From the NCBI RefSeq assembly GCF_033568475.1, contig NC_133120.1, positions 80,824,151 to 80,888,150 of the forward strand: a DNA stretch of 64,000 bases, given 5' to 3'. The notes beneath the pieces are model-generated. The model worked only from the letters and a program-made list of their open reading frames with translations, did no database searches and was not told the DNA's origin. The DNA is from Henckelia pumila. Lineage: Eukaryota; Streptophyta; Magnoliopsida; Lamiales; Gesneriaceae. The translations under genes and the position numbers were made by a program. This document shows, piece after piece, positions 7,006 to 39,728 of this stretch; the stretch's first letter is position 1; every line of letters starts with the position of its first letter.

Positions 7006-7045
7006 TTGAAGTGGTAACAGAATTACAGAATTCGGGTCGTCACAA
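7006..7045. other. Composite junction scar between LTR and viral insert
   Basis: Between the LTR end and the viral sequence are 'ttgaagtggtaacag', which matches viral ORF2 sequence at 12477-12489, and a second copy of the LTR tip 'gggtcgtcacaa'. The word 'aattacagaattc' occurs at 7019-7031 and again at 7066-7078. This is not a simple target-site duplication and looks like filler from template switching during repair. Confidence 0.5.
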
Positions 7046-10441: not shown

Positions 10442-11187
10442 AGATGGACCAGGAAGACGGGGAGAAGTCGTATTGAAGTGAATCAGAGGCATGATTGGAG
10501 TAGTAATAGAGTATTTAGATAGATTGATCGAAGAATAATTTTATTGATAAAATTGAAAGGTTGAAATACAAAGCTAATTTAAAGATTGAATACTAAAACT
10601 TGAATTGAATCGATGAATTTAAAACAGATACAGAGGGAAAATATAAGAATTTATCTCTCTATGTTTTTCTCTGTCTAAATTGGCTCTCTTTTCCTCTTGA
10701 TCGTTTTGCCTCTTTTATAGCAGTTGAGGGACGCCTGTAGTAGGATTCCTTGTTTGGTGAAGGGTCTTGTCTCGTTTGATTTCTTGAAAGCACTTGAGTG
10801 GAATCTTTACTATTGAGCGAAGTTGACGTCTTATCTTCTTTTGCTTTTCTTGGTGGCGAAGTGGACGTCTTGTCTTCTTTTCCTTTGCTTTGTCTTGAAG
10901 CAAATGTCTTGTCTTCTTTTTCTTTTCTTTGTCGTAAAGAAAAATAATTGCTTGTGTTGGCCGACATAATCTTTACATCTTTTGAAAATAAAAGTGTGAC
11001 TACTGCTTTTTCTTAACGTGTAGTCTGCTTTTGAAATGTATTTTTTCTTGACAACTGACTACTGTTTTTTTCACGTGTAGTCTGCTTTTTATTTTTCTTG
11101 TTTTGTTTTTTCTTGATTTTTCTTTTTAATAATTGATTACAATAATACAACTTCTTGAAAGTATTGTCATCACTATTCCCTCCCCGG
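10442..11187 (-). promoter_or_regulatory. EPRV intergenic promoter region, unit 1 (tandem copy)
   Basis: This is a direct repeat of 9681-10441 with the same order of elements and a TATA box at 10719-10712 (minus). The joint between units reads 'cctggtccatct|gggaggg', so the duplication begins and ends next to the primer site. The homologous single copy in piece C is 38970-39680. Confidence 0.7.
10712..10719 (-). promoter_or_regulatory. TATA box, pregenomic promoter (unit 1)
   Basis: TATAAAAG on the minus strand, in 'gctataaaagagg', aligns with the TATA box of unit 2 and with 39467-39475 in piece C. Confidence 0.65.
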
Positions 11188-11225
11188 GTTTTTGAAATTT
11201 CTTGCCAGGGAAAAATAGGAAATAG

Positions 11226-13037: not shown

Positions 13038-13042
13038 AGAGT
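13038..13042 (-). repeat. Athila target-site duplication, 3' copy
   Basis: ACTCT on the minus strand directly follows the LTR end (..GATCA). It pairs with ACCCT at 24269-24273 with one mismatch. Intact ORF2 in piece C reads 'aaccctgtctttc' here. Confidence 0.75.
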
Positions 13043-20444: not shown

Positions 20445-20942
20445 AAAATTTTGAAGTACCTGAAGAGTTTTGTTTTTGATATTTTGAAAATACTCTTTGT
20501 TTTTCCCATTCATAAAAACTCATTTTAGTGTTTGAATTTGAGGAATAATATAAATCCCAAAAATAATCTTGTTGTTTTTCTGATAAAAGTCGAAGAACAT
20601 TTTTTTGAAACATTCTTTCGTTTGAATTTTTACTTTTTAAAAAATCTTGTTCACGATCAATTTCTTGAAATATAACAAATAACTTGTTTCTTTTATGAGA
20701 TATTTGTATTTTTTTACTATTTAAACTTTCTTGATTTCTATCAATATTTATTTCTTCTTCATCATCTATTTGAATACTACTACTATTACAATCATAATTC
20801 TTACTTGACTTCATACTACTGGACCTTGACATCCTAAAGAACAAAGGAATAGACCAAGACATAGCTAATTCAAACAATTAAATTTTACCTTGCAACTTAA
20901 TCGCTTAAGTTTACCTTGAGATCTGACGTAGATGGAACACCA
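20445..20942 (-). pseudogene. EPRV piece D: ORF1 N-terminus without movement protein
   Basis: Read leftward from 20877, it gives the same N-terminus as piece A (MFELAMSWSI, then YDCNSSSIQID) and goes straight to the 'HKRNKLFVI' segment. The movement protein is missing at the same junction as in piece A. It breaks in the Ser/Lys repeat at 20445-20452, where Athila sequence follows. Piece C starts in the same repeat at 34514, so D and C are two halves of one copy separated by the inversion. The upstream leader (20878-20942) ends at a head-to-head joint with piece B. Confidence 0.8.
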
Positions 20943-21940
20943 ATAGTATTGTAATAGTAGTAGTATTCAAATAGATGATGAAGAAGAAATAAATATTGAT
21001 AGAAATCAAGAAAGTTTAAATTGTAAAGAAATACAAATAGCTCAAATTGAACAAAAGATTACAAAATTGGTCAATTCCTAAAATAAATTATAAAACAATT
21101 TATGAAGTAGGAAAGTTTGATTTTAAACAAGATTATTCAATCAAGATTTGTGAACAAACAATTCCAATTACTAATAATATTACACAGATAAGATTATTTT
21201 CAAAAGAAACAATTTTAGAACACCGTAAGAAGCATAAGTTTCTTCATATCGGTTTAGTTCAAGTAGCAGTAAAGCCTTTATTTCGATTAGGCTTAGATAT
21301 TCCAATTCTTTTACTCTTAAGAGATAAAAGACATTTAAATTTTTTAAATTCTTTATTATCTATTTTAGAATCAAATTTAGAAAGTGGTCCAGTTTATTTT
21401 AACTGTTATCCAAATTATTGAATATCATTAGATGATGGTGCAATTTTAAATTCTCTTACTTTAGATATTCAAAGTAAAAATTTACAAATTGATGAAAGAT
21501 CAAAAGCTGTTGCACTTATTTACCGTGTTTATTACAAGGTAATGAGTACGACTTTTGCACCTCGTGCACTCAAATCTTCTCCAAAAGGAGAAACTCTTTT
21601 AATGGAATCAAATACATTACATACAAGTGTTATAATTCCTAAAAGATTAAATTGGAAAACTATAACTAATTTTTCAAGTTGAAATCTTGAGCATGTACAT
21701 TCACGTCCTCAAGAATCATCAAATAAAAATATTTTTCAAATAATTGAAAATGATGATGGAAGTGTTCAACTTCACTTTTCATCAAAATCTTCAATATCTT
21801 CAAACTCTGAAAATATTCAGCAATCTTCAAGACACTCTACATCGTTTGAACACCTTCGTGGAGTTAATTTTATTCCAAATATTTCTTAACCTTTTTACGA
21901 AAAAACAGATCAAGAATCTGAATTTTCTCCAACAAGTTCC
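20943..21940 (+). pseudogene. EPRV piece B: N-terminus and movement protein (30K superfamily)
   Basis: This segment starts inside the acidic ORF1 N-terminus, then has a 30K-type viral movement protein region: KTIYEVGKFDF, IRLFSKETILEHRKKHKF, LHIGLVQVAVKP and LLLLRDKRH. Such proteins form tubules or modify plasmodesmata for cell-to-cell spread. The best open part is 21047-21421, ended by TGA. Another TGA lies near 21680, a TAA near 21888, and a frameshift just before 21047. It is the only movement-protein copy in the window; pieces A and D lack it. Confidence 0.8.
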
Positions 21941-23075
21941 GAGATGCAAATTCCTGAAACTTATCATAAAAGAAGCCAGTTATTTGTTATATCTCAAGAA
22001 ATTGATCGTGAACAAAAATTTTTAAAAAGAAAAAATCCAAACGAAAGAAAGTTTCGAAAAAATGTTCTTCGAATTTTATCAAAAAAACAACAAGATTATT
22101 TTTGGGATTTATATTATTCCTCAAATTCAAACACTAAAATGAGTTTTTATGAATGGGCAAAACAAAGAGTATTTTCAAAATATCAAAAACAAAACTCTTC
22201 AAGTACTTCAAAATCCTCTACAAAAAATTCTCAATCAAAATCTTCTACAAAAGATTCTCAATCTAAATCTTCTACAAAAAACTCTCAATCTAAATCTACA
22301 AGTACTTCAAAATCTTCTACAAAAAATTCTCAATCAAAATATTCTACAAAAGATTCTCAATCTAAATCTTCAAAAATTTCCACAACAATTCTTCTGTTAA
22401 TACAGGAGCATGTTCTTCAAAAATATGAAAAACAAGTAATGTAAATCAATTTCAATCTGTCCATCCTCCTCTAGAAGAAATTAAAATTTCAGTTCATAAT
22501 ACTGAAATAATTGCTTCTCCATTCAAGCAACCTTCTGTCATTGAAGGAACTCTTACAATAAAAGAAATAAAAAATATTAATCTTCAAAATAATTATACAA
22601 ATGTTATTCTTAACTTCGTGGCTCATCAGCTCACTAGAGTTGAGAATTCAATTCCTAATATTTTGTCAAATTCTTCAATAGAAACTTCAAAAAAAAAATT
22701 AAAAATTACTTCTCATTTATTAAAACCAATTCAAACGTCTTCTACAAACAAAGAAAAAATCAATAAACTTCAAATAGATGATGATTTTAAAAATTAATTA
22801 TTAACTTTAATTCCTTCATCTTCTGATGATAATCAAGAAGATATTCTTTTTCCTATCCAAGAAGAATCTGATTCTGAATATTCAAGCTCTTCTTCTTTAG
22901 AAGAAGGAAAAGAATTCTGTAATTGCAATGATGAAGTTTGTGATTGCAAATCTACAATAAATGTTATAAAAAATGAACAAGAAATATTACAAGATGTTAT
23001 TAGTAAAATAACTGATCCAAAATTAAAAGCTAAATTTGAAAATCTTCTTCAAGAACCAAAAAAAAGAACATTATA
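21941..23075 (+). pseudogene. EPRV piece B: Ser/Lys repeats and acidic linker with coat protein deleted
   Basis: An open frame (21944-22444) carries the 'QLFVISQEIDREQ' segment and a long Ser/Lys 27-bp repeat array (22205-22380). Matching to piece C then continues to about 22747. There the sequence jumps from 'ccaattcaaacgtcttctac' directly to the segment following the zinc knuckle (INKLQIDDDF). The whole coat-protein core and zinc knuckle, about 1.2 kb in piece C, are missing. The acidic linker (LTLIPSSSDDNQED, FCNCNDEVCDC) remains, with a stop near 22796. Confidence 0.75.
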
Positions 23076-23079
23076 GTCT

Positions 23080-23750
23080 AAATAAAGTTATGTCTAGATT
23101 TAATTCAAAATCTATGAAACTCTTTCCACAAATTATGATCTTCGATTTGAAATTAATCAAATGAAGAATCAAATTCAAGAACTTCAGAAAGATATTTCTG
23201 ATGTCAAGATAGAACTTACAATTCTAAATCCTCCATTACAAAAAGATGAAGATATTAATTCAAATAATAATTCTCCATCTTCAAGTAAAAATACAACTCC
23301 TCAAAATTCTGATTTTGAATATGAAGACAAAGAAGATAAACTTCAATGTGTCATAAATAAAATTAGTCTTCAAAAATGGTACTCTCAAGGAACAATTGTT
23401 GTCAATAAACATTTCAAATTAAAAACAAAATTTTTAATTGATTCCGGTGCAGATCAAAACTGTATCCGTGAAGGATTAATTCCAACCAAGTATTTCAAAA
23501 AAACAACCAAAAGATTATTTGGTGCAAACAGAAGTCCTTTAAAAATCAAATACAAACTCTCAAATGCACATGTGTGTAATCAAAATAGTTGTTTCAAAAA
23601 TATATTTTATCTTGTTAAAGATTTAGAACAAGATGTTATTCTTGGTACTCCATTTATAGTTTAATTATATCCTTTTCATGTAAATGAAAAAGGAATACAT
23701 TCAATAATTTTGAATCAAGAAATTACATTTCCTTTTTTCAATCCACCAAC
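23080..23750 (+). pseudogene. EPRV piece B: aspartic protease
   Basis: The pepsin/retropepsin-like domain has the catalytic motif LIDSGADQN (Asp codon at 23440) and the flap and C-terminal motif DVILGTPFIV before a TAA at 23662. This enzyme would cut the viral polyprotein. The frame continues past the stop through FPFFNPPTSRDIHTL and is in phase with ORF2 downstream. In related viruses the reverse transcriptase follows directly after this point. Here no RT or RNase H sequence is present. Confidence 0.8.
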
Positions 23751-23831
23751 AAGTAGAGATATACATACTCTAAAACAAATATCTATTTTTCAAAAAATCA
23801 ATAGTATAAATCTAAAAAGACAAAAACCCTC

Positions 23832-23840
23832 TATAAATAT
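23832..23840 (+). promoter_or_regulatory. TATA box upstream of EPRV ORF2 (piece B)
   Basis: TATAAATAT in 'ccctctataaatatagacc' lies 82 bp before the ORF2 ATG at 23914. Piece C has TATAAATAG at the same place. Confidence 0.5.
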
Positions 23841-23913
23841 AGACCAGTCAATCTCATTTTTACTCACCCCTACAAAATATCTCAAACTAGTTCTATCCAA
23901 ATTAGATCTCAAG

Positions 23914-24273
23914 ATGTCATATAAGCGCAAGAGTCTAGTATCACAAGTTAGATCACAAGATGATAAGTTTTTAGTATTTGGAGATATGTCTCTTCCTTTA
24001 CTTCCAGAGTCATCAAACAAATATTTCAAGCCAAGCCAGCCTTATAATCTAGATCAATATCAAAAAACCCTTTTAAATTCCTTATGGAATATTTCCCCAA
24101 ATAATTCAAAACAAAAAGCCTTTGTTTTAAATGCTTTAGCCAATTATTTCTCTTTCCAGTACAAATCTCCTCAAACACAGCCCAAGTATTTAGTTCTCTT
24201 AAATGGTAGATTTCCTGGAATTTACAATTCTCTTGAAAGATTGAAAGAATCTATCAATGATACTCTAAACCCT
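23914..24273 (+). pseudogene. EPRV piece B: N-terminal part of ORF2
   Basis: From the ATG after 'gatctcaag' it encodes MSYKRKSLVSQ, FGDMSLPLLPES, NLDQYQKTLLNSLWNISP and ends at INDTLNP. The Athila 5' LTR then interrupts it after ACCCT. The rest of the same ORF2 is the minus-strand segment 13037-11226. No premature stop is seen in this part. The function is unknown. Confidence 0.75.
24269..24273 (+). repeat. Athila target-site duplication, 5' copy
   Basis: ACCCT lies directly before TGATAGG of the LTR. Its partner is ACTCT on the minus strand at 13042-13038. Confidence 0.75.
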
Positions 24274-25646
24274 TGATAGGAGTCGTTTTTTTGCGTTGTT
24301 TTGCATGTTTTGTGTTTGTTTTGCATTCGTTTCGTTTACGTTGTGTCTGTTCTTTACCATTCTTGTTCTGTTTATTGTTTTATTGTGTTTGTAGTCACTT
24401 CTCTGGTTTATATTTTTTTTACTGCAGGAAATCACTAGGAAATGCTGTTTTTTGGTGAGAAGGAGATGAACGCATGAGGCCGTGAGGAAAGCAAGAGAAG
24501 GAATTTATATTTCTGGAAAAAGACAGGGCGCCCGGGCGGCACTTTTCTACCGCCCGCGCGTACTCATGTTTGGGAAAAACAGTAGTTGGCCATAAGACAA
24601 GGCGCCCAAGCGGCACTTTTCTACCACCCGGGCGCGATGCGTAGATTTGGAATTTTAATATTTTGGAGAGTTTATTTCGAGAAGGATTCTTGGGGACTAT
24701 AAATACAATTCTTTCCATAGATTTAAGGGGTCAACAGAGGCACACAGAAGGAGGTAGACGGCGGCTAAGAGTTTGAAGTTTTCTCATCTTCGTTGGGAGT
24801 TTTTCTCTTCGTCTTTTCTGAATTTTTATGTTAAACGCTTTTTAGATTGAATTTTGTAATGACGTTCAGTAGCTAAACTTTTATTTTGTTGGAATCAAGG
24901 GGATCCGAACCCCAAAACACTGTAGTGTGATTGAATCACCGGACGTATTGAGATTTGATTTATGTTTATAATTGATTTTATCATGTGTTTTCTCTATGTT
25001 GATGATTAGCTACCCTTAACATAGATTCGTAAATTATGAATTGTTGTCGCGAGATAGGTTCATAGTTAGGACGAATGATAGAATCCATGAACTTAAAATA
25101 TGCATAGAGATATGGTATTTAGTACATGTTGATAGCCATAGACCACCATGTTGAAAGTTGTAGAATTCATAGAACGCAAAGCAATCAGTCGTGATAAACA
25201 ATTAGAGAGATTTAATTGTTTCATTGATTTGATTAGTTTGGCATAACCTCGAGAGAGAGTGTCAATGTTTCAAGAATTTTTTTCAAACTTATGCGCATAA
25301 ATTAAGTTCCAATCGTCTAGTTCAATTAAGGGGAAGGTGAACCGAAATTCCAACAAAATCTTTTCAAATTGTTATTTTTCAATCGTGAGAATTGGTTTCT
25401 TGGTTGTGAAATATTTATTTATTTACATTGAGTTCTTAGTATTAAATGTTAGATAGAATCCAAAATCAACTTTTCGATACTTTGTGTAGTTAAAAATTAA
25501 AGAAACAAATTATTATTGATTAGTCCCTGAGGACGATACTCGTACTCAGTACATTTTATTATAACTTGAATCGTGCACTTGCGATTATTTCGACTGGAAC
25601 TGAGAGAGTTTTATAGCAAATTTAAGTGTTAGTATTCCATTGATCA
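24274..25646 (+). mobile_element. Athila 5' LTR
   Basis: The 1,373-bp LTR runs TGATAGGAG...CCATTGATCA and is followed 6 bp later by the primer site. It contains a TATA box (24699-24706) and a GC-rich inverted-repeat block at 24527-24640 (cgcccgggcggcacttttct and its complement). The sister LTR on the minus strand is 17570-13043. Confidence 0.9.
24699..24706 (+). promoter_or_regulatory. TATA box in the Athila LTR
   Basis: TATAAATA in 'gggactataaatacaattc' is a likely core promoter for the element transcript. It is conserved in the other LTR near 13985 on the minus strand. Confidence 0.6.
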
Positions 25647-25652
25647 AGTTTT

Positions 25653-25670
25653 TGGCGCCGTTGCCGAGGA
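25653..25670 (+). other. Primer binding site (tRNA-Asp type)
   Basis: TGGCGCCGTTGCCGAGGA is complementary, but for one base, to the 3' end of plant tRNA-Asp(GUC). This site is usual for Athila/Tat elements. Confidence 0.85.
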
Positions 25671-25854
25671 CTACTGAGAATTTAATTTGTTTTATTTGAT
25701 TTTTCTCTATTACAATTTTAATCACTCTTTTCCATCTGTGAACTGCAGGATTCTCTTGCAGTGCATGCAACATTCACCAGAAGAAGAACTCGTGCCTTTT
25801 GATCCATAAATTGAAAGAACTTTTTGCAGAAGAAGAAGGCAACAAAAAGAAGCA

Positions 25855-26538
25855 ATGGCAGACCAAGAACGATTACGTGGATTGGAAGAAGAAGAGAATC
25901 TTGCACCACCTATCTACAGATCCACGATGGATAGCGCTTTGCCATCCATCGAAAATGCCAGACCAAGCATCATCAGGCCAACAATAGCAGCAAATCAGTT
26001 TGAAATAAAGCCTGTTATCATTCAAATGGTGCAAAACACAGTCCAGTTTGGTGGGATGACAATAGATGATCCATATGCTCACCTGACAAATTTTCTAGAA
26101 ATCTTTGATACTTTTAAGATGCAGGGAGTTTCTGATGACACTATTCATTTGCGTTTATTCCCTTTTTCTTTAAGAGATAAAGCTAAAGCATGGCTAACCA
26201 ATCTACCTGCAGGGTCCATCACTACTTGGGATGATCTAGCAAAGGCCTTCCTCACTAAATACTTCCCACCGTCCAAATCAATGAAACTCAGAGCAGACAT
26301 TACAACATTTGCTCTAGGTGAACATGAAACACTCTATGAAGCATGGGAGCGTTACAAAGATCTACTGAGAAGATGCCCACATCACCAACTACCAGACGGT
26401 CTTGTGGTACAAACTTTTTATTATGGTCTTCCTCACTCAAATCGTACCATGTTAGATGCAGCTGCAGGTGGAAATCTGTTACGAAAATCACCAGAGGACG
26501 AATATGAGTTAATTAAGGAGATGGAATCCAGTAGCTAT
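25855..26538 (+). pseudogene. Athila gag, part 1
   Basis: From MADQERLRGLEEE the frame encodes the Athila-type capsid region: DDPYAHLTNFLEIFDTFK, RLFPFSLRDKAKAWL, LTKYFPPSKSMKLR, YEAWERYKDLLRRCPHH and LVVQTFYYGL. It is open to 26538, where a solo LTR cuts it. It resumes at 27964 and again at 29550. Before the insertions this was one gag frame of the Athila element whose pol is at 31349-34223. Confidence 0.85.
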
Positions 26539-27955
26539 TGATGAGTGCATTTTCTATGCATTAGTTTGTGATATTTTTAAATCTATTTTGTGTGCATTCA
26601 TATTATTTTTTTGTGTTTTTATGTGTTTTAGTACATGTGTGTGTATTTCACTCCTCGAGTGTTAATTTTGTAGGAAAATAGATTTGTGAAGCATTAATTA
26701 TGGAATAGCCTTGGTCAAAAATTCAAATTTAATTTTATAAAGCTGCAAATCCAATCTTTACCGTTCAAAATAAAGTTCCAGATGTTTTGAAGCTGCTGTC
26801 CAAATTTCAGCTCGATCCGATGGCTAGAACTGAAGTAATGAATTTTTCAAGAAAACTGCGCGCAGGCAAGGATGTATGCACGGACCCCGTGCATGGGTCC
26901 GGATAAGGGTCCGTGCATCCTCGTAAAAAAATCGGCGTTTTCAGTTTAATGCACGGACCTAGACACGGACCCTTATCCAGGGTCCGTGCATGTCGCTGAA
27001 TCAGAAAAAATAGAATTTTCGGGAATTAAAACTTTCAAGTTTCCGGGCTTTATTTATTGGGCTTTCAAAGACATATAAATAGGAGATTGTCAGACGTGAA
27101 AGGGGGTTCGAATCGCATCAGATAGACGGCGGCTAGGAGGCTTGGAGATTGAAGAACGCTCCATTCGAGTTTTTCTTCCTTTCTTCTTTAGATTATTAAA
27201 CTTTTTTTGAATATTGTTTTCGTTATTTGAGTAGTTTTTCTTCAACCAAGACCGCGAGATTGGTCCAGACAATTTTATGTTGAATTTTTGGATTTTGATT
27301 TGGGATTTTTAGATCTTTATTAATGTTATTGATTGTTGGATTTATATTTTGTTCTTGTGAATAATCTGATCAATTATTTACTTGCATGTTAATTGATTCC
27401 GAGTCGAAAGGTTAGGAATTGATTTCGATCACTCCAATAATTGACATATGGTTAAATCGACTAGAAATAGTATTCGGTTTCAGTATGCGGTTTTAGGTGA
27501 AAACTGAATTATCACAAATATTGAATGCATTCATGTTTGATTAGAATTATGAAAATTAATCCGTCATAACTTGAATAGGTTTAACATGTTCTAGAAATAG
27601 ACTGTTAAACAAGATAGGATAATTCGCCGTGATTTAAAATTAAATATGGATCCTAGATTTGCCACTTGTTTACATAATTTGTTTGGTACCTGCGTGTGTC
27701 TTGGTTGTCTCGTTTTAATTAATTTTATCTTCAGTTATTTTTAATTCTTATTTCTTATGCATTTTTTATTTTTAAATTCTTATTTTTATTCAATTCAAAA
27801 TCCTTTTTATTATTTTGTCTAGATTAAGCTAAATAATTAATTTTTGAGAATTGACTACAGTCCCTGTGGGATCGATACTTGGACTCTCAGTCCACTTTAC
27901 TACTACTTGAACTAGTGCACTTGCTAGTAATTATTTTTAATACCGAAATTTGGCA
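26539..27955 (+). mobile_element. Solo LTR nested in Athila gag (1.4 kb)
   Basis: TGATGAGTGC...AAATTTGGCA is flanked by an 8-bp direct repeat GTAGCTAT (26531-26538, 27956-27963). A TATA box (TATAAATAGG) lies at 27074-27083. The end, with 'ggatcgatacttggactctc' and 'gtgcacttgc', resembles ends of Athila/Tat LTRs. The repeat is longer than the usual 5 bp, so either the true LTR edge is a few bases inside or the match is partly chance. Confidence 0.75.
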
Positions 27956-27963
27956 GTAGCTAT

Positions 27964-28176
27964 CATCCTCAATCAGAAATGAATGCAGTCAGAAGACCCG
28001 CAGGAATGCATCAAGTTGATGCATTCACTTCAGTGGCCGCTCAACTTGAAGTCATGAACAAGAAAATTGAGGAACTGAGTGTAGGAAACTCTGTGATGCG
28101 AGTTCAAGAAGTGTGGTGTGAAAAATGTGGTGCAGAGAATTTCACGAAAGACTGCCAAACATTTTCTCAACCAGAG
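27964..28176 (+). pseudogene. Athila gag, part 2 (zinc-knuckle segment)
   Basis: It continues gag with SEMNAVRRPAGMHQVDAF, AAQLEVMNKKIEEL and a Cys motif CEKCGAENFTKDC at about 28119-28155. That is the nucleocapsid-type zinc knuckle, with Asn where the family often has His. It is cut at 28176 by a second solo LTR. Confidence 0.75.
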
Positions 28177-29544
28177 TGTAGTAGCCCGTACCCGAAATTA
28201 GTGATTAAGTGTTAATCAATTCTTTAATCCTACTAATTAAGAGTAAACATGATTAATGGAACTCTTAATGGGTTAACGGAGTCCGAAATTGGATTCAGAA
28301 TACTTGAAAATGGTTTGAGGGCCATCGAGTTCGGAGGCTCCGAAGTCAAGGTTCGGACGGTCTGAAGTCAGGGTTCGGACGATCCGAAGAGTGGTTCGGA
28401 CGCTCCGAACGTGCTGCCGACAGTCTTCATGAATGATGTCATCATGCTGACGTAAGCAATGACGTAATATCGGGTTCGGACGACCCAAATGTGTTCGGAC
28501 GACCCGAAGTCCAGTTCGGACGATCCGAACTCCGTCTATAAATAAGAGGGCCGAGATTCAGATTTAGACGCACCAATCACCTCTTCTCTCTCGATTCCTT
28601 AGCCTTCTAACTCCGATCTAGGGAATTCTAGGCGTTCCATTGGGAATCCGGAAGTGGCATAGCGATCCAGGCGTCGTAGCGGAGCTGTGGCCTAGTTTTG
28701 AGGCACTCGACAGCAAAGGGCTAACGACGGACGAAGGTATAGCTTTTGCTTTCTATAAATATTTAGGAGTATGAAATAGCTTAGTTAAGGCTTTTAGAGC
28801 ACTTTAATGATAGTAGTATCATTTGGCAGTGTAGAGCAGATTATAGGCGTGGACCTAGGGCGGATAACACTTGCCTAGTATTTGAGGTACGGAAGTACTG
28901 TTCGAGATATCCTGACTGAGTATGCATGTATTATGTGACTGCATGGTTTATATGTCATTGATTTATGTTGCATTCATTTGCATACTGAGCTATCTCCTTC
29001 GAGATGTCTGTTAGTAGGGTTTTTCCCTATCCTGTTAGTGGTTGGACTTCCATCGATTTGGGTCCGACATATCCACTGGTATTATGGTATGGGAGCCACC
29101 TCCTGAAGCGACGGCACATCGTGCTACATACCAGGGTCCGGTCTGTCTCTGTTATCTGATCCTTGACCTCGAGTTTATAGGGAGTTCACTTTGCATGCAT
29201 GTATACTCATACTCTTGTACTGAGCGTTTTATGCTCACGTCTCGTACTCTGTGTTTCTGGACACCCTATTCCATGGGACAGGTTTGCGATTGGACGAGGC
29301 GGGTGGATCCAAGAGGGGCTAGGTAGTGGTTGGCCAGCTGGAGCTTCGTCTAGGTTTTATTTCTGTTGTTTTGGGTTGATACAACTATTCGATTTGATTG
29401 TATAATATTTGGATAAATTATAGATTCCTTTCCTTGGGATTGTATTTATTTATGGTTTCCGCCAGTTTATTCTGATATCTATTTTATTAAGTTAATTGCA
29501 TGCCTAAGTTCTGTTAATAGGTGATCCGGGTAAGGGTCACTAGA
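28177..29544 (+). mobile_element. Solo LTR nested in Athila gag (second, 1.37 kb)
   Basis: TGTAGTAGCCCGTACCCG...GGGTCACTAGA is flanked by CAGAG (28172-28176, 29545-29549). A TATA box lies at 28537-28546. The upstream part (28328-28531) has at least seven copies of a near-palindrome of the form TTCGGACGATCCGAA. The solo LTR at 41521-43032 belongs to the same family. Confidence 0.8.
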
Positions 29545-29549
29545 CAGAG

Positions 29550-30963
29550 GGAGTTATGGCAAGTCACATGGGAAATCAAAATCGCCCAAGGAATGACCCA
29601 TTCTCGAATTCCTATAATCCAGGGTGGAGACAGCATCCAAATTTCTCGTGGAGTGGACAGAACAATAAACCATATGGGAATAAAAACTACGGCAGACAGC
29701 CTCAAGAGGAAAAATCGAGCTTGGAGCATATGATGCAAAAATTCATATCATCTACTGAAACCCGCATGCAGAATCAAGATTCCTCAATAAAGAATCTGGA
29801 GAATTTGATAGGGCATTTGGCCAAAACAATTTCCAGCAGAGATCAGGGTACCTTGCCGAGTGACACGGAGAAGAATCCGAAGGAGCAGGTAAAAGCAATT
29901 GAACTGAGGAGTGGAAAGACAGTAGAGCTTGCACCACAGATCGAGAAAGAGCCAGAATTGGCGGCATCAGAAAAAATTTCAGGTAAGTCATCTATCCCAA
30001 CACTTTCACCCACTTCACAAGCAAAAATTGTTGTGCCACCACCTTTTCCTGTAGCTCTGAAGAAGGAAAAACTAGATTCTCAGTTTGGCAAATTCCTGGA
30101 AGTATTCAAGAAATTGAATATTAATATTCCCTTCGCTGATACACTGATGCAAATGCCAAGCTATGCAAAGTTCTTGAAGGAGATCCTCTCCAACAAGAGG
30201 AAACTGGAGGAGCATGCAATGATTAGTCTGACTGAGAATTGCTCAGCACTAGTGCAAAATAAAATCCCATTAAAGAAAAAAGATCCAGGGAGTTTCTCTA
30301 TCCCTTGTGTGATTAATGATATTCAATTTCATAAAGCTTTATGTGATTTGGGTGCTAATATAAATCTAATGCCTTACTCTGTGTTTAGGAAATTGAGCTT
30401 GGGAGAACCAAAGTCCACCAGAATGTCGTTACAACTGGCGGACAGGTCCATCAAATATCCACGGGGGATAATCGAGGACGTGCTTGTAAAAGTGGACAAA
30501 TTCATCTTCCCCGTGGACTTCGTGGTGCTAGATATGGAAGAGGATTTGGACATGCCACTCATCTTGGGTAGACCTTTCCTGGAAACAGGAAAGACACTAA
30601 TAGATGTCCAGAAGGGAGAGTTACTGTTGAGAGTGGGAGAAGAGAAAATTTCGTTTGACGTTTTTAATGCTTTAAAATTTTCTCAGAATAATGAAGAATG
30701 TTTTCAACTGGATGTAGTGAACTCACTGTTATTTGATTATGTGCAGGATACTTTTCAGGAACCATTAGAAGCTGCACTTATATCTGAGCATGTGGAAGAT
30801 CTCAGTGACAGAGTTGAAGAGATGACTGCATATTTGAATGACAACCAGTCATGGAGAAGAGGTGGAAAGCTTAGACTTGAAGACCTTGGTGACCGGAAGG
30901 ATTTAATCCTCCAGAAACCAAGCCTTGAGGAACCACCTACTGTGGAATTGAAACCATTACCTA
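29550..30963 (+). pseudogene. Athila gag C-terminus and aspartic protease
   Basis: The open frame (ATG at 29556, 470 codons) has an Asn/Gly-rich gag tail (NPGWRQHPNFSW), a linker, and a retroviral-type protease. The protease has catalytic ALCDLGANINLMPYSV (Asp near residue 264) and LILGRPFLETG near residue 335. The Cassandra-type LTR at 30964 interrupts the frame, and the ORF's own stop lies inside that insert. Beyond it the pol frame resumes. Confidence 0.8.
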
Positions 30964-31343
30964 TGTGACGCCCGGGGCTGAAGAGGCAGGGAGTGATCGT
31001 CGGTGCCAAGAGATTGCACGGACAATGAGCGGCTCCTGGTAGGCTTCTAGGCGGAGGGAGACATGAATGAACCGATCCCGTGCCAGAATGAGAGGGATTC
31101 TGAGACTGTGTAGGTATGGGACTACATGGTTGAGGAGAGCTTAAAAAGATTTCATATGTACTATTCATATCAAGAAGGTGCATCTTCTTTTCGGAAGCTC
31201 ATCACATAAGAACTCCAAAGTTAAGCGTGCTTAACTTGGGGCAATTATAAGATGGGTGACCCCCTGGGAAGTTTTCCAGGGTGCGTGTGAGTGAGAACAT
31301 AAGCACGCTGAAAAGATCCGTCTTGATACAGTGGGGCATTACA
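30964..31343 (+). mobile_element. Solo LTR of a Cassandra-type TRIM with a 5S-rRNA-like core
   Basis: TGTGACGCCCGGGGCTG...GGGGCATTACA is 380 bp, flanked by ACCTA on both sides (30959-30963, 31344-31348). It carries a 5S-rRNA-derived segment, the hallmark of Cassandra terminal-repeat elements in plants. It splits the Athila protease from the reverse transcriptase. It codes for nothing and would have moved with proteins of another element. Confidence 0.85.
31179..31285 (+). ncRNA. 5S-rRNA-like segment inside the Cassandra LTR
   Basis: The sequence follows plant 5S rRNA over most of its length, including 'atcacataagaactcc', the A-box region GTTAAGCGTGCTT (31220-31232) and the C-box region GATGGGTGACCCCCTGGGAA (31252-31271). 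It is not a true 5S gene: there are internal differences and a small insertion near 31233. These internal Pol III boxes probably drive the element. Confidence 0.8.
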
Positions 31344-31348
31344 ACCTA

Positions 31349-34223
31349 TCCATCTCAAATATGTGTTTTTAGGTGAGAATGATAAGTTACCTGTCATAAT
31401 ATCTTCTTCTTTGACAGGTGAGATGAAGGCCAGACTAATGGAGGTGCTCAAGAACCACAAGAGTGTGTTTGCCTGGAAAGTGGCAGATATAAAAGGAATC
31501 AATCCATCCATATGCATGCACAAGATTTTAATGGAAGAGAGCATCAACCCATTGGTCCAACTACAAAGGAGATTGAATCCAAAAATGCAGGAAGTTGTCA
31601 AAGCTGAAACGATCAAACTTCTGGATGCAGGTATCATTTATCCTATATCTAATAGTCCATGGGTGAGTCCGGTGCAATGTGTACAAAAGAAGGGGGGAAT
31701 TACTGTCATACAGAATGAGAATAATGAACTGATACCCACTAGGACAGTTATAGGTTGGCGTGTGTGCATAGACTATAGAAAACTAAATGACGCAACCCGT
31801 AAGGATCATTTTCCTCTCCCCTTCATTGATCAAATGCTAGAGAGACTGGCTGTGTATGAGTTTTACTGTTTTTTAGATGGGTATTCAGGATACAATCAAA
31901 TAGCGATTGCACCTGAAGACCAGGATAAAACAACTTTCACTTGCCCATATGGTATGTTTGCCTATAGACGTATGCCTTTCGGGTTGTGTAATGCTCCTGC
32001 TACTTTTCAGAGATGCATGACTGCCATTTTTCATGATATGGTCGAAATTTTTTTAGAAATTTTCATGGATGATTTCTCTATTTTTGGTCAATCTTTTGAT
32101 GCATGTCTGCATAACTTGAATTCTGTTTTAATGAGATGCGAGGAGACAAATTTGGTGCTGAACTGGGAGAAGTGCCATTTCATGGTGACAGAAGGTATAG
32201 TATTGGGTCACCGAATTTTTGAACAGGGGATCGAGGTGGACAGGGCCAAGGTGCACGTTATTCAAAATTTTTCTCCACCTACAATAGTCAAGGGAGTCAG
32301 AAGTTTCCTAGGCCATGCCGGTTTCTACCAGCGGTTTATTAAGGATTTTTCAAAAATTGTCAAACCTCTTTCTTCTTTTCTAATGAAAGATGCCCCTTTT
32401 GACTTTGATTCAAATTGTTTACAGGCCTTTGAAGTGTTGAGAGAAAGACTGGTGACTGCACCAATACTGACATCGCCGAACTGGGATCTCTCATTTGAGG
32501 TAATGTGCGATGCAAGTGACTCTGCTGTTGGCGCGGTGCTTGGTCAACGAATAGACAAGGTATTTCGAACTATCTACTATGCTAGCAAGACTCTAAATGA
32601 AACTCAACTAAATTATGCCACCACTGAAAAAGAGTTGCTAGTTGTAGTATTTGCACTGGACAAATTTCATTCATACCTTGTACTTTCCAAAATCACAGTA
32701 TACACAGATCACTCTGCTATTAAGCACTTGTTGACGAAGAAAGATGCCAAACCTAGACTGATTAGATGGATCTTACTTTTGCAAGAATTTGATTTAGAGA
32801 TCAGAGATAATAAGGGTGTTGAAAATGTAGTAGCTGATCATCTATCTAGATTAGAATGCATTACTGATGGTGCACAAACTGAAATAGAGGACATAGATGA
32901 TTGGTTCCCTGATGAAAAACTTTTTGCCATAGAAAGTTCACCATGGTATGCAAATTTTGCTAATTATCTGGTCACAAGCACACTCTCACATAATCTGTCT
33001 TTCCAACAAAAGAAAATTTTTTTATCAGATGTAAAGCAATATTTTTGGGAGGAACCTTTTTTGTTTAAAATATGTGCTGACTCGATGATCCGGAGATGTG
33101 TGGCGGAAGGAGAAATGCAAAGCATCCTCAGTCATTGTCATGATCGTGAGGTAGGTGGCCATGCTGGGCCAGTAAAAACAGCAGCAAAGGTACTTGAATG
33201 TGGGTTCTATTGGCCAAATCTCTTTAAGGATGCGCGGTTGTTTGTATTAGCTTGTGATAGATGTCAGCGGACAGGTAATATCTCAAACCGAAATGAAATG
33301 CCTTTAAATAATATCATTGAGTGTGAGATATTTGATGTATGGGGAATCGACTTCATGGGACCATTTCCAATTTTTTTGACAAAAAAATACATTTTGGTCA
33401 CAGTCGATTATGTTTCAAAATGGGTAGAGGCTGAAGCTTATGCGACAAATGATGCACAGGTTGTACTGAAATTTTTGAAAAAAAATATTTTTAATCGGTT
33501 TGGTACACCCCGTGCAATCATTAGTGATGGTGGCACCCACTTTTGCAATAAACTTTTTGTCAAACTCTTAAAAAAATATGGTGTCAAGCATAAAGTCTCT
33601 ACCCCATATCACCCCCAGACCAGTGGCCAAGTGGAAGTGTCCAATCGAGAAATCAAACAGATTTTGGAGAAAAGTGTGAGTACTAATCGGAAAGATTGGG
33701 CACTTCGACTTGATGATGCCTTATGGGCCTATAGGACAGCGTTTAAAACACCTATAGGCACTTCCTCTTATAGACTGTTATTTGGAAAGGCATGCCATTT
33801 ACCTGTTGAGTTAGAACATAGAGCATATTGGGCTACTAAGACCCTAAATTTTGAATTTGCTGCTGCATGTGAAAAGAGATTGCTAGAGCTTAATCAACTG
33901 GAGGAATTCCGCGACAGTGCATATGATATAGCGGTTTCGTACAAGGAACGAACCAAGAGAATACATGACAGGTGCATTCGTCAGCGGGAATTCAAGGAAG
34001 GAGATGCTGTCTTGCTATTTAACTCCCGGTTGAGGCTTTTCCCGGAAAACTAAATTCTAGGTGGTCTGGCCCCTATAAAATCACCAAGGTATATCCATCG
34101 GGGGCCATTGAAATCAAAGATGCCAGAAAAGAGTCTTTTACGGTCAATGCTCAAAGGCTAAAACACTATGTGGGGGGTGACGTTGATTCCATGTCTGTCA
34201 TCACCACATTGACTGACCAAGAC
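31349..34223 (+). pseudogene. Athila pol: reverse transcriptase, RNase H, integrase (one late frameshift)
   Basis: An open frame of 896 codons from 31363 has all the catalytic parts. RT has [37 protein letters not shown] and the active site FMDD at about residues 234-237. RNase H has [15 protein letters not shown] and [13 protein letters not shown]. Integrase has an HHCC zinc region (SHCHD, GGHAG, CDRCQ) and the D,D,E core ([17 protein letters not shown], a Glu in [12 protein letters not shown]). A one-base loss near 34040 ends the main frame at 34053. The last 55 or so codons (SGPYKITKVYPSGAIEI) continue in another frame to TAG at 34224. The catalytic core therefore looks intact and the element fairly young. 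Confidence 0.88.
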
Positions 34224-34226
34224 TAG

Positions 34227-34513
34227 TTTGGGGAGGAAGAAAAGTCAAGCTCTAGACTTTAAATTGAGAACTACTCTCTTCAATCTCTTTTATTCAATTT
34301 TTTTAGTAGTTGGTTTTATTTTTCGTAATTTATTTTGTTTTTTTTTTCAAAAATTTGCAGGCGCTCGAGCGGTGATTTATTGCCACCCGAGCGCCCTGTT
34401 TCTGTTTTCTTAAAAAAAATTCGAATTGGGGTGCGCCCGGGCGGCTATTTTCTGCCGCCCGCGCGCGTGCCCTCTGTTTTTATTAAAATTTTTCAAAAGG
34501 GTGTGCGCCCGGG
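34227..34513 (+). other. Athila post-pol spacer with GC-rich palindromes, ending at the inversion breakpoint
   Basis: It contains imperfect GC-rich inverted repeats at 34361-34395 and 34432-34467 (gcgcccgggcgg ... ccgcccgcgcgcg). It ends at 34513 in 'gtgtgcgcccggg', after which viral sequence begins. The rest of this spacer is 20443-20255 on the minus strand. Confidence 0.7.
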
Positions 34514-35930
34514 TTAAATCTACAAGTACTTCAAAATCTTCTGCAAAAGATTCTCAATCAAAAGATTCTACAAAAGATTCTCAATCTAAATCTTTAAAAA
34601 TTTCCACAACAAATTCTTCTGTTAATACAGGAGCATCTTCTTCAAAAATATGGAAAACAAGTAATGGAAATCAATTTCAATCTGTCCATCCTCCTCTAGA
34701 AGAAATTAAAATTTCAGTTCATAATACTGAAATAATTGCTTCTCCATTCAAGCAACCTTCTGTCATTGAAGGAACTCCTACAATAAAAGAAATAAAAAAT
34801 ATTAATCTTCAAAATAATTATACAAATGTTCTTCTTAACTCTGTGGCTCATCAGCTCACTAGATTTGAGAATTCAATTCCTAATATTTTGTCAAATTCTT
34901 CAATAGAAACTTCAAAAGAAAAATTAAAAAATACTTCTGCTTTATTAAAACCAATTCAAACGTCTTCTACAATTAAAGCAAAAATTCAATTAGAAACTTC
35001 TTTAGATGTTCTTAATGAACTTAGTACTCAATTTTCAAAATTAAATTTAATTAACGATTCAAATAAAATAAATGTTGTCAATGAAATTGACGAAGTTCAA
35101 AATCAATTTAATGACTCAAATGATGAATTATTAAAAATTCATAATCCTAAAACAAATCAACATCAAAATAAAAATTACAATTCTTTTTTCAAACAACACT
35201 ATAATTTTCTTCCAAATTATTATAGTAGACCATCATTTCCAGATATGCAATTTGAAGAACCTCAAAAACATCAAAAATCCTTTTCTGGAGATAGTCTTCT
35301 CAAATGGAATCTCGATGGAAGAACTGAACATCAAATCATTTCTATGTTAGAAGAAATGATGATGGCTTCCACCGCTTACAAAGCAAAAGGTGTTGATGAT
35401 TACAACACAACTTTCAATCTAATTGCAGGATTTACCGGCCAGCTTAAAGGTTGGTGGAATAATTTCCTCACTGAATTCGATAGAACAACAATTTTAACTG
35501 CCATCAAACATGAAGTTGATGACGCAACAATACCTCCTATTCAAGATGCTGTCAATACACTAATTTATGCCATTATTAAACATTTTCTAGGCGAACCTAA
35601 AAAATTTCAAGAAAAATCTTCCGAAATTTTAATGAATTTAACATGTCCAAAATTACATGATTTTCGTTGGTACAAAGATATGTTTTTATCTAAATTACTT
35701 CTACGAGATGATTGCAGTTTTTTTTTTTTTTGAAAAGAAAGATTTATTGCAGGATTACCAAAACTCTTTGTTGAAAGAGTTAGGGAATCTATTCGCAAGC
35801 AAAATGCAAATTCAATTCCTTACCCTTCTCTAACTTATGGTGAAATCATAAGTTACATCAATGCCGAAGGATTAGCTTTGTGCAATGATTTAAAAATTAA
35901 AAAAAAAACTCAAACGGGAGCATAATGAGA
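34514..35930 (+). pseudogene. EPRV piece C: ORF1 Ser/Lys repeats and coat protein
   Basis: The segment starts in the Ser/Lys repeat, continues through a linker, and has the coat-protein core: SFSGDSLLKWNLDGRTE, MASTAYKAKGVDDYNTTF, GQLKGWWNNF, NLTCPKLHDFRWYKDMF. A homopolymer expansion of 13-14 T at about 35719-35732 breaks the frame (TGA at 35731-35733). The next stretch (FIAGLPKLF) is in another frame. This is the best-preserved coat protein in the window. The matching N-terminus is piece D. Confidence 0.85.
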
Positions 35931-36545
35931 GCACAAGAAAACTTGGTTCCTTTTGTGCTCAATATGGTTTCGAACAATTACTTCCTCCTTCAAGAAAACA
36001 TAATAAAAATAATAAACATAAATTTCAAAGAAAGTTTTACAAGAAATCTTATAAAAGAAATTATTTTAAAAATTCAAGATATTCAAAACCTTTTAGAAAA
36101 TCAAAAACTTTTTATAAAAATTCAAAAAATCATTTCAAAAATAAAACTAACAAAGTTACATGTTTTAAATGTAAAAAACTTGGACATTATTCAAATAAAT
36201 GTCCAATACAAAGAAAAATCAATGAACTTCAAATAGATTATGATTTTAAAAATCAACTATTAACTTTAATTCCTTCATCTTCTGATGATAATCAAGAAGA
36301 TATTCTTTTTCCTATCCAAGAAGAATCTGATTCAGAATATTTAAGCTCTTCTTCTTTAGAAGAAGGAAAAAAATTCTGTAATTGCAATGATGAAGTTTTT
36401 GATTGCAAATCTACAATAAATGTTATCACAAATGAACAAGAAATATTACAAGATGTTATTAGTAAAATAACTGATCCAAAATTAAAAGCTAAATTTGAAA
36501 ATCTTCTTCAAGAACCAAAACAAGAACATTATAGTCTAAACAAAG
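35931..36545 (+). pseudogene. EPRV piece C: basic region, CCHC zinc knuckle and acidic linker
   Basis: After a Lys-rich stretch a zinc knuckle CFKCKKLGHYSNKC lies at 36161-36202, in a different frame from the open frame 35925-36236. It would bind the viral RNA during packaging. An acidic linker with DDNQEDILFPIQEESDSE and FCNCNDEV follows, then 'DPKLKAKFENLLQEP', leading to the protease. Confidence 0.75.
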
Positions 36546-36547
36546 TT

Positions 36548-37231
36548 ATGTCTAGATTTAATTCAAAAGTTCAAAAAACCCTTTCAACAAGTTCTGATCT
36601 TCAATTTAAAATTAATCAAATGAAGAACCAAATTCAAGAACTTCAGAAAGATATTTCTGATGTCAAAATAGAACTTACACTTCTAAATCCTCCTTTACCA
36701 AATAATGAAGATATTAATTCAAATAATACTTCTCCATCTTCAAGTAAAAATACAACTCCTCAAAATTTTGATTTTGAATATGACGACAAAGAAGATAAAC
36801 TTCAATGTTTCATAAATAAAATTAGTCTTCAAAAATGGTACTTTCAAGGAACAATTGTTGTCAATAAACAATTCAAATTAAAAACAAAACTTTTAATTGA
36901 TTTCGGTACAGATCAAAACTATATCCGTGAAGGATTAATTCCAACCAAGTATTTCGAAAAAACAACCGAAAGATTATTTGGTGAAAATGGAAGTCCTTTA
37001 AAAATCAAATACAAACTCTCAAATGCACATGAATATAATCAAAATATTTGTTTTAAAAATATATTTTATCTTGTTAAAGATTTAGAACAAGATGTTATTC
37101 TTGGTACTCCATTTATAGTTCAATTATATCCTTTTCATGTATATGAAAAAGGAATACATTCAATAATTTTGAATCAAGAAATTACATTTCCTTTTCTCAA
37201 TCCACCAAAAGTAGAGATATACATACTCTAA
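36548..37231 (+). pseudogene. EPRV piece C: aspartic protease with altered active site
   Basis: The open frame of 227 codons contains a coiled region (QIQELQKDISDVKIEL) and the protease. The active-site motif reads IDFGTDQN (Asp codon at 36899-36901), whereas piece B has IDSGADQN. The catalytic Asp remains, but the following Ser and Ala are replaced by Phe and Thr, so activity is doubtful. DVILGTPFIV is kept. A one-base loss near 37208 relative to piece B ends the frame at 37231. No reverse transcriptase follows. Confidence 0.8.
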
Positions 37232-37289
37232 AACAAATATCTATTTTTTAAAAAATCAATAGTATAAATCTAAAAAGACAAAAACCCTC

Positions 37290-37298
37290 TATAAATAG
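37290..37298 (+). promoter_or_regulatory. TATA box upstream of EPRV ORF2 (piece C)
   Basis: TATAAATAG lies 56 bp before the ORF2 ATG (37346), in 'ccctctataaatagagacc'. It is conserved with piece B and could drive a separate ORF2 mRNA, as a second promoter does in some caulimoviruses. Confidence 0.5.
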
Positions 37299-37345
37299 AG
37301 ACCAGTTAATCTCTAAAAGTCGTTCTCTCTAAGCTAGATCTCAAG

Positions 37346-38923
37346 ATGTCATATAAGCACAAGAGTCCAGTTAGATCACAAGAAAATAAGTTTTTAGTAT
37401 TTGGAGATATGTCTCTTCCTTTACTTCCAGAGTCATCAAACAAATGTTTCAAGCCAAGTCAGCCTTATAATCTAGATCAATATCAAAAAACCCTTTTAAA
37501 TTCCTTATGGAATATTTCCCCAAACAATTCAAAACAAAAAACCTTTGTTTTAAATGCTTTAGCCAATTATTTCTCTTTCCAGTACAAATCTCCTCAAATA
37601 CAGCCCAAGTAGTTTGTTCTCTTAAATGGTAGATTTCCTGGAATTTACAATTCTCTCGAAAGATTGCAAGAATCTATCAATGATACTCTAAACCCTGTCT
37701 TTCATTCATTTGTCCAGCTGACAGATGCATTCAAGTATGCAAGAAATAGACTAGGGCCTAAATTTTTCATTTATTATGCAGCAAGATTAGATGCCTCCAG
37801 GGCTCAAGCAGTTCAAAAGCTTTCTCAATTATCTGATCCTTTTTCTATTGAATCAGATATCAAAATTTTAAAATTAAAAGAAAAGATGGTAGAACCATCA
37901 GATTAGATTTTTCAATTACAAAATGCACTTATTTCAAAAACTCAAGAGATAGAGTTTCTTTAAAAACACTATCTTATTCACAACAATCCCAGTTCTGTTG
38001 AATTGGACAAAACCAGTCCATTAGTTCCAATAAACCAAGCTCGAGTTTTCTTCAAAACTACATCAATACTTAGTTCTCTTCCAAATTTCATTTCTGAATA
38101 TATTTATTCTTTAGCCAAGAAAAATTTTATCTCAAAATTTTCAATTATCCAAAGATGTCTTTCTTCAAACCCACAAAGTCCAGCCATTGATATTAAAACA
38201 ATGATTGGCATGCACCCTTTAGATGGTCATCTCACCTACTCTCTTGTTACCACTTCAATTGTAGCCTTTTATTTTCAAGACCTTCATATATCAAATAACC
38301 AAACAACATTTGATCTTACTATCAATGAACTTTTTGATTTAGGATTAATTTCCCAACTCATATTCAAAGATGATGCTCAATTTCAAAGTTTCAATAGTTC
38401 GTTACTGAAAGAAGCAATTCAAAATCAATTCAGTAAAGGTTTCCCTTTTGTTCAATTAGAAATTGCTTCAACGATTCCAGAATGGATAGACACAGAACTT
38501 CACCCAGCTATCCATAGAGTATGGGTCAGAGGTCTTCAATTTTTCAATATTTTTACAGATCCAATGAAAATAATTTATATTAGCAATTGTCCAAAACCTA
38601 TGGACGAACAGATGAAACATCAAAGACTCAAGACTTTTGCTTTCAAACACCATTTCCTAGACCACAGATGTAAAAATTACACTCTGTTTGGATCAACTCC
38701 AATTCTCAAAGTTTACATCAAATTTGGAAGTTATCTTCAAGATTCCAAGTTCCATTTCAAAACAGAGACACCAGATATTTTTGACAATTACTGCAAACTC
38801 TATTCAAGAATGGTTATAGACATGCTTCAAGATGACTTCGATCCAGAACCAATAAATGACGATGAGCATTATGACCTCATGGATCTTCTAGGAGAAGAAG
38901 GATTACATAATATTGATACATAA
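37346..38923 (+). pseudogene. EPRV piece C: ORF2, full length with three stops
   Basis: One frame of 526 codons from MSYKHKSPVRSQ to the TAA at 38921-38923 is interrupted by stops at 37610-37612, 37904-37906 and 37961-37963. Recognisable stretches are FGDMSLPLLPES, NLDQYQKTLLNSLWNISP, YARNRLGPKFFIYYAARLDA, KTSPLVPINQARVFF and KHQRLKTFAFKHHF. The C-terminus (DDFDPEPINDDEHYDLMDL) is acidic and unlike the Trp-rich tail of piece A. No domain of known function is visible. Second ORFs of unknown function are known in florendovirus-like EPRVs; I infer this is one. Confidence 0.7.
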
Positions 38924-39677
38924 TTCAATATTATGTCCAATTTTAAAATTCAAGATTCCTTGGAATTTTCAAAAACCCGGGGAGGGAATAGTGATGACAA
39001 TAATTTCAAGAAGTTATATTACAAGTTGTATTATTGTAATCAATTATTAAAAAGAAAAAGCAAGAAAAAACAAAACAAGAAAAATAAAAAGCAGACTACA
39101 CGTGAAAAAAACAGTAGTCAGGTGTCAAGAAAAAAATACATTTCAAAATCAGACTACACGTCAAGAAAAAGCAGTAGTCACAATTTTATTTTCAAAAGAT
39201 GTAAAGATTATGTCGGCCAACACAAGCAATTATTTTTCTTTACGACAAAGAAAAGAAAAAGAAGACAAGACATTTGCTTCAAGACAAAGCAAAGGAAAAG
39301 AAGACAAGATGTCTACTTCGCCACAAAGAAAAGCAAAAAAAGATAAGTCGTCCACTTCGCTCAATAGTCAAGATTCCCATCAAGTGCTTTGAAGAAAGCA
39401 AACGAGACAAGACCCTTCACCATTATTGACAAGGAAGGAATCCTACTACAGGCGTCCCTTAACTGCTATAAAATAGGCAGGACGATCAAGAGGAAAGGAG
39501 AGCCAATTTAGACAGAGCAAAACATAGAGAGATAAATTCTTATATTTTCCCTCTGTATCTGTTTTAAATTCCTCGAATTCAATTCAATATCTTTGAATTT
39601 CAATTTGTATTTCAATCTTTCAAACCTACAAACATGCTCTTCCGCCGCTTCCATACCCTGTCCCCCCGTCGTCCTGC

Positions 39678-39680
<3 letters not shown>
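38924..39680 (+). promoter_or_regulatory. EPRV piece C: intergenic promoter region
   Basis: From 'ggggagggaatagtgatgac' (38972) on it matches the duplicated units of piece A, with purine-rich 'aagacaagac' words and a TATA box at 39467-39475. It ends at 'gtcgtcctgctcc' (39680), a few bases before the expected primer site. Host AT-repeat DNA follows. Confidence 0.7.
39467..39475 (+). promoter_or_regulatory. TATA box, pregenomic promoter (piece C)
   Basis: TATAAAATA follows 'ggcgtcccttaactgc', at the same place as in both units of piece A. Confidence 0.65.

Positions 39681-39728
<48 letters not shown>
39681..39728. repeat. (AT)n microsatellite
   Basis: About 24 AT units directly abut the end of the viral insert. 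AT-rich simple repeats are often found at EPRV borders. Confidence 0.9.

Follow-up and report, generated by a model that had tools for sequence, protein, structure and literature searches.

Viral pieces at the locus and the RT-less join

We analysed a window of 64,000 nucleotides from the plant Henckelia pumila (NC_133120.1, positions 80,824,151 to 80,888,150), which lies on a large contig of an 885-Mb genome; contigs are labelled C1-C4 below and loci L0xx. The window holds two pieces, B and C, of an endogenous caulimovirid, made up of parts of the movement protein (MP) gene, DUF7746 capsid region, zinc knuckle, aspartic protease (AP), second open reading frame (ORF2), intergenic region and leader. 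Neither piece carries a reverse transcriptase (RT) between protease and ORF2. We refer to this RT-less form as form B and to its ORF2 as ORF2B, and to the RT-bearing form found elsewhere in the genome as form A, with ORF2A. The main features are as follows.

20948..24273, + strand: piece B, running from the leader end through MP, the N-part of the capsid region and the protease to the start of ORF2B; RT-less, with a class S join
21041..21682, + strand: movement protein (PF01107, E 3e-22), with one internal stop
23246..23773, + strand: aspartic protease region of piece B (PF00077 in 23104-23664)
23774..23903, + strand: RT-less join of piece B, with protease and ORF2B in one stop-free frame
23904, + strand: onset of ORF2 similarity in piece B
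34515..39680, + strand: piece C, from the capsid region to promoter and leader, its end adjoining (AT)n
34515..35733, + strand: capsid region of piece C (PF24925, DUF7746, E 1.9e-25; match in 34414-35733)
in 35894-37231, + strand: CCHC zinc knuckle of piece C
36700..37231, + strand: aspartic protease region of piece C
37232..37335, + strand: RT-less join of piece C
37336..38923, + strand: ORF2B of piece C, degraded (Cauli_VI, PF01693, in 37613-37906; 21.9 bits, cut-off 21.0, E 2e-4)
38924..39680, + strand: intergenic region and leader of piece C, with TATA at 39467

An earlier reading of the window, made from its sequence only, had protease pass to ORF2 in both pieces without RT or RNase H, and this is what we find: the protease probe ends at 23773 and 37231, ORF2 similarity sets in at 23904 and 37336, and the gap of ~100-130 bp holds no RT or RNase H match in either piece. 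The two joins have aaaaagacaaaaaccctctata in common, again as that reading had it. Across the genome we read 24 AP-to-ORF2B joins on the four large contigs C1-C4. They fall into three classes, S (the window type) with nine, L with eight and D with seven (one D copy, L023, has a foreign insert), and no RT match lies between AP and ORF2B in any of the 24, the hybrid L042 being counted apart. The proposals that the deletion predates the two insertions and that an RT-less form was multiplied are thereby supported. Class L retains the start of ORF2A (~50 residues) ahead of the ORF2B body; the S and D joins are shorter. In class D (L019 at 5943-6030, L025, L022, L028 and L045) ORF2B starts after TTTGCAG or TCTGCAG, which resembles a splice acceptor.

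Of the 21 copies tested, 13, with all three classes among them, have AP and ORF2B in a single open frame; in the other eight the frame is disrupted. Piece B is among the open copies, as had been noted from its sequence; the frame of piece C has stops. A TATA box had also been placed between protease and ORF2. The sequence is there, but it lies within the fused AP-ORF2B frame, and in RT-bearing copies within the RNase H tail, so its role as a promoter is only putative.

The C-part of ORF2B has 65 matches in the genome (70 candidates, all scored; some copies count as several pieces). A protease search, whose figures come from the best 150 of 379 candidates and hence are lower bounds, gave at least 36 copies at ≥60% identity (39 rows, three copies being in two rows each) and at least 111 further distant rows. 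The protease end was read in 31 of the 36 copies: 21 continue into ORF2B, nine into RT, and one hybrid into a short RT remnant and then ORF2B. Among the remaining five, four unread copies have ORF2B next to them, to go by their coordinates, and the fifth is interrupted by an insertion. Three additional ORF2B joins (L017, L009 at 5456, and L055) lie outside the 36. Since an RT-less copy served as the query and only the best 150 of 379 candidates were used, 21:9 is not the ratio in the genome. One 6-kb gap (C4:45.56-45.57 Mb) considered as a site of caulimovirid RT was rejected, its frames resembling, by eye, a Ty3 element with integrase.

The breakpoints can be read by comparing the two forms. 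The form A sequence is ...AAAAAGACAA|CATATC at the end of the protease and ...AAAAGACAA|AATTTC at the tail of RNase H; class L of form B has ...AAAAAGACAA|AATTTC. The direct repeat AAAAGACAA is present at both old ends of the deletion. The overlap is 9-10 bp (P = 1.4e-4 for at least 9 at random breaks in these stretches), as read from copies other than L040; in L040 itself the repeat carries a substitution and the overlap comes to 4. To judge by these alignments, RT and RNase H dropped out of form B by a deletion between two direct repeats of 9-10 bp.

Other deletions are also present. L042 and L012 (5888-7534), taken as one copy interrupted by a retroelement, have a different RT-RNase H breakpoint with a 10-bp overlap, and ~74 bp of RT are left. 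A form without MP has the same join, within alignment limits, in five places: twice in the window (9195-9410 and 20607-20821) and in L014 (8553-8774), L018 (7444-7653) and L051 (278-493), of which L051 is RT-bearing and L018 RT-less. By this recurrence, the MP-less join appears to mark a second deletion of this virus to have been multiplied. Together, the L042/L012 deletion and the MP-less join argue that deleted forms arose more than once.

The RT-bearing form and the ORF2B protein

AP-to-RT joins occur in nine copies (L033-L040 and L044), of which L033, L036 and L044 break off soon; one RT-bearing copy lies ~5 kb left of the window. We fetched five downstream stretches of form A: four continue through RNase H to ORF2A, and the fifth is truncated within RNase H. 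In all four the ORF2A frame differs from that of RNase H (single RNase H-ORF2A frame, 0 of 4). Four upstream stretches contain capsid or zinc-finger regions with 89%-97% DNA identity to the window; MP is present in L054, which has a gap in the capsid region, and cleanly missing in L051, the other two stretches being uninformative. The RT of form A is 62%-77% identical to its best plant endogenous viral element (EVE) matches among 120 proteins. Its dN/dS across six copies is 0.38, but one wrong frame gives 0.52; the first half of ORF2A (four copies) gives 0.57.

ORF2A resembles the ORF2 of locus L032 (tblastn match in three of four copies, E 9e-8 to 1e-5). For the L032 ORF2 there are 43 protein-database matches, the named ones from Erythranthe, Sesamum, Solanum and other plants, and a profile of 22 of these relatives with L032 itself matches the ORF2A profile at E 2.6e-6; none of them is labelled florendovirus. 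The L032 family itself consists of separate, abundant caulimovirids with AP-RT-RNase H and an overlapping ORF2, many having open frames of 1441 codons; members lie at C1:74.78-74.85, C1:104.74-104.80 and C2:31.53-31.59 Mb.

Form A and form B, or pieces of them, occur together at C1:80.8, C2:118.8, C3:53.4 and C3:31.7 Mb, and several of their segments are nearly identical. In the ZF-mid segment (20 rows), identities are 96.7% for A-A, 96.7% for A-L, 95.9% for A-S, 96.7% for L-L, 95.7% for L-S and 94.9% for S-S; class D is 92%-93% identical to the rest and separate in the tree, in which A, S and L each fail to form one clade (changes: A 2, S 5, L 3). Intergenic identity, with two A copies, is 94.6% for A-L, 94.2% for A-S, 94.1% for L-S, 93.8% for S-S and 90.0% for A-D; an RT-bearing partner with a near-identical promoter region had been predicted, and one exists, at 94.2%-94.6% to S and L. 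L029, the promoter ahead of the RT-bearing L051/L038, was left out of this comparison; it is 93.4% identical to the promoter of piece C. For MP, with one A copy, identity of A to S and L is 97.2%-97.4% (A-S, 97.4%), and S-S is 96.7%. In the shared parts compared, then, A appears ~94%-97% identical to S and L, as close as S and L are among themselves. The start of ORF2 is form-specific: 96.2% for A-A, 93.7% for L-L, and 86.2% for A-L. Near-identical shared parts together with a form-specific ORF2 start are the pattern expected if the two forms recombined while co-replicating, and we infer that such recombination took place in the shared parts. Three promoter copies without ORF2B (L029-L031), taken as candidate 3' ends of form A, contain no form-A RT or RNase H match.

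ORF2B is a protein of ~530 residues whose gene follows the enzyme region and precedes the large intergenic region. A point that the sequence-only reading did not raise is that its body has no detected similarity to the ORF2 of the RT-bearing form: hhalign gives a probability of 0.2% against both ORF2A and the plant-EVE ORF2 family, with thin ORF2A and ORF2B profiles (3-4 rows) that leave remote homology possible. Sharing between ORF2A and ORF2B is limited to the ~50 N-terminal residues of class L (86% DNA identity).

The Cauli_VI domain (PF01693) is matched in seven of the eight ORF2B copies that span the site, L017 having no match. Scores exceed the curated cut-off of 21.0 in two of the eight, the window piece (21.9 bits) and L014 (21.1 bits); the five others range from 13.9 to 19.1 bits, one at E 0.068, and include L019 of class D, in which the whole profile is matched. 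Pieces holding only part of the site gave no PF01693 match. A single-sequence model of the window ORF2B piece, which lacks the first residues, is all helix (pLDDT 67, low confidence) and does not support an RNase H1-N fold. ORF2B has a dN/dS of 0.29 among 13 class S and L copies, with wrong frames at 1.13 and 0.87; D against S/L copies gives 0.41, and the four D copies among themselves 0.71. By this measure ORF2B was under purifying selection. One may speculate that it acts like a transactivator/viroplasmin (TAV).

A probable two-component virus and the alternatives

We consider it probable that a florendovirus-like caulimovirid circulated as at least two DNA forms, with form B as an RT-dependent component. 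Such components are already known from the florendovirus work of Geering et al. (2014; PMC4241990), which distinguishes components A and B in viruses of Vitis (Vitis vinifera B and D virus), Oryza (Oryza sativa B virus) and Sorghum (Sorghum bicolor virus). Component B is without RT and part of RNase H but retains MP, capsid protein and AP, and its extension shows homology to ORF2; helper dependence, loci of compound structure and TA repeats are mentioned as well. A 2023 review (PMC10377300) adds Beta to the bipartite cases, and the Vitis components were recovered by CAULIFINDER (PMC9719215). The suggestion that the window might hold a similar or a new case of a bipartite florendovirus stands as to its likeness to component B, and not as to novelty, the kind being already published (PMC4241990).

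Measured against that account, form B likewise has no RT and keeps MP, capsid and AP; its protease is in frame with a C-terminal extension in a single polyprotein; its RT-bearing partner exceeds, relative to classes S and L, the published figures of 90% intergenic and 87% MP identity; and compound loci and TA repeats near ends recur. Two features differ. In the published cases the extension is homologous to component A's ORF2, with greater divergence in Oryza and Sorghum, whereas here no such homology was detected for the body of ORF2B, and the C-terminal part of RNase H is not retained, class L having only a short tail region in another frame. Form A itself resembles monopartite florendoviruses such as Lotus japonicus A virus in its order of capsid, protease, RT and RNase H and in an ORF2 in another frame (PMC4241990), but is accompanied here by form B. 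As far as our searches detect, then, what appears new is the extra gene, not recognizable as a copy of the partner's ORF2.

In the two-component reading, form A carries capsid, zinc finger and protease, followed by RT, RNase H and an ORF2 putatively of florendovirus type; one of the copies read has MP and another is without it. Form B, from which RT and RNase H were deleted between the repeats, reads its protease in frame into ORF2B and keeps promoter, leader, MP and capsid. It would be transcribed from its own promoter, and reverse transcribed (with RT in trans) and packaged by form A proteins; shared parts would be exchanged between the forms by recombination, and copies would have entered chromosomes at breaks, often beside TA repeats.

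A more specific version is a split genome in which the RT-less component bears a transactivator/viroplasmin-like gene absent from the RT-bearing one. We put this forward tentatively, leaning slightly against it. ORF2B resembles the TAV/P6 proteins of Caulimovirus, Soymovirus, Cavemovirus and Solendovirus in its Cauli_VI match, size and genome position, and is unlike them in being fused to the protease, in the missing RT and in having no match outside the domain. If true, the two components would have divided the labour between them, with a gene gained, instead of being two overlapping halves, and a TAV-type protein would exist on the florendovirus-petuvirus side, where a review (PMC5902531) saw no TAV homologue recognizable by protein BLAST in Florendovirus or Petuvirus. 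The main text of a 2026 survey (PMC13308828) is without the terms 'bipartite' and 'viroplasmin', and among the titles and abstracts listed in our literature searches we found none joining a TAV-type gene with an RT-less component. A true TAV relative in this place would bear on the entry of polycistronic translation into the family.

Several observations weigh against the two-component reading. All evidence on the two forms comes from integrated genomic copies, and few A copies were compared (four for ZF-mid and the ORF2 start, two for the intergenic region, one for MP). The A copies are clustered on the ZF-mid tree, where as few as two changes arose in 3 of 500 shuffles, and 11 of its 17 inner branches are open. 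Relatives of ORF2B were found neither in the protein database at E 1e-3 (5122 candidates) nor in IMG/VR. Finally, at least one locus (L054 + L040 + L049) holds MP, part of the capsid region, AP, RT, RNase H and the start of ORF2A; with most of the standard genes at one locus, form A may have been self-sufficient and form B only its passenger.

Form B as a defective or satellite-like passenger of a self-sufficient form A, replicated with the enzymes of A but dispensable to it, is a possibility that we take seriously, at less than an even chance; it is compatible with the two-component reading, and our estimates for the two overlap. The RT-bearing locus with most of the standard genes favours it, as do the second RT-RNase H deletion (L042/L012) and the MP-less join in five places. 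Against it are ORF2B, not found in the A copies read, its purifying selection and its in-frame fusion in three join classes: a distinct conserved gene is not expected in a plain deletion product.

We think it unlikely that the RT-less form arose by decay of an integrated copy and was then multiplied through host duplication or transposable elements. Local inverted or tandem clusters do exist (e.g. at C4:189.16 and C4:45.57 Mb), and 13 of 42 flanks have ≥500 bp in common with a flank of another locus, at 69%-94% identity (the closest pair, L015/L024, 93.5% over 1002 bp; others 69%-89%), which may be repeats or duplications. The other 29 flanks have no such match, however, and 12 of 42 flanks carry a TA repeat of ≥10 bp no more than 150 bp from the viral end, compared with 0.66% of random non-viral stretches (from this window only). 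The three join classes, the dN/dS of ORF2B and the failure of RT-bearing and RT-less copies to form separate clades in the shared segment also speak against multiplication by the host.

We regard a supply of RT by another virus, the abundant L032 family, as very improbable. L032 does encode RT and RNase H, and distant protease matches are numerous in the genome (111 of 150 rows, best 150 of 379, at 35%-42% identity), many having frames of up to 1441 codons. However, no promoter or leader match lies at L032 or at the 1441-codon clusters among the 66 matches listed (best 40 of 61 candidates), it is form A that shares the intergenic region, at 94%, and the L032 ORF2 is unlike ORF2B. A single local RT deletion with pieces B and C as its local duplicates, to which their common join would point, is refuted by the 24 such joins on four contigs and by piece B, which pairs on the pre-protease segment with the RT-bearing L052 and not with piece C (support 96/96); RT-bearing copies exist, as that alternative had supposed, but the junction is not unique to the locus.

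Bipartite reverse-transcribing viruses rest on a few cases reconstructed from genomic fossils, to which the present genome would add one. If the two-component reading is right, the case illustrates how an enzyme-less component may originate by deletion at short repeats, carry a selected gene of its own and have its shared parts kept alike.

Other viral pieces and integration sites

The window contains further features.

7043..13043, - strand: compound viral piece (blastn, window and RT-form probes)
11229..11991, - strand: 3' portion of ORF2A, the putatively florendovirus-type ORF2 found in RT-bearing copies (96% identity to L050)
20607..20821, - strand: 5' viral fragment with the MP gene missing, its join recurring in four other places
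39682..39728, no strand: (AT)n repeat bordering piece C on the right

In the compound piece an ORF2B fragment (13043-11981) is joined to a form-A ORF2A fragment (11991-11229), together with two promoter/leader copies, an MP-less 5' region (9410-9195) and a capsid and zinc-finger region; it is cut off ahead of the protease. Between pieces B and C (29544-34053) lies a retroelement with protease, RT, RNase H and integrase in a Ty3-like order, for which no LTR (long terminal repeat) pair was detected. An LTR-retrotransposon insertion splitting one virus copy into pieces B and C was rejected, their contents overlapping, and there are no ungapped direct repeats of ≥100 bp between the two pieces. Piece C ends a few bases short of the primer-binding-site place known from other copies, as located with what we take to be the consensus of that site.

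Viral pieces often start at intergenic-probe positions 40-100 (three at 100), adjoining foreign or other viral DNA; such starts are found in L014 (3973), L015 (3336), L031 (5992), L029 (6634) and the window (10441 and 11201). These recurrent starts perhaps reflect a plus-strand gap used in integration.

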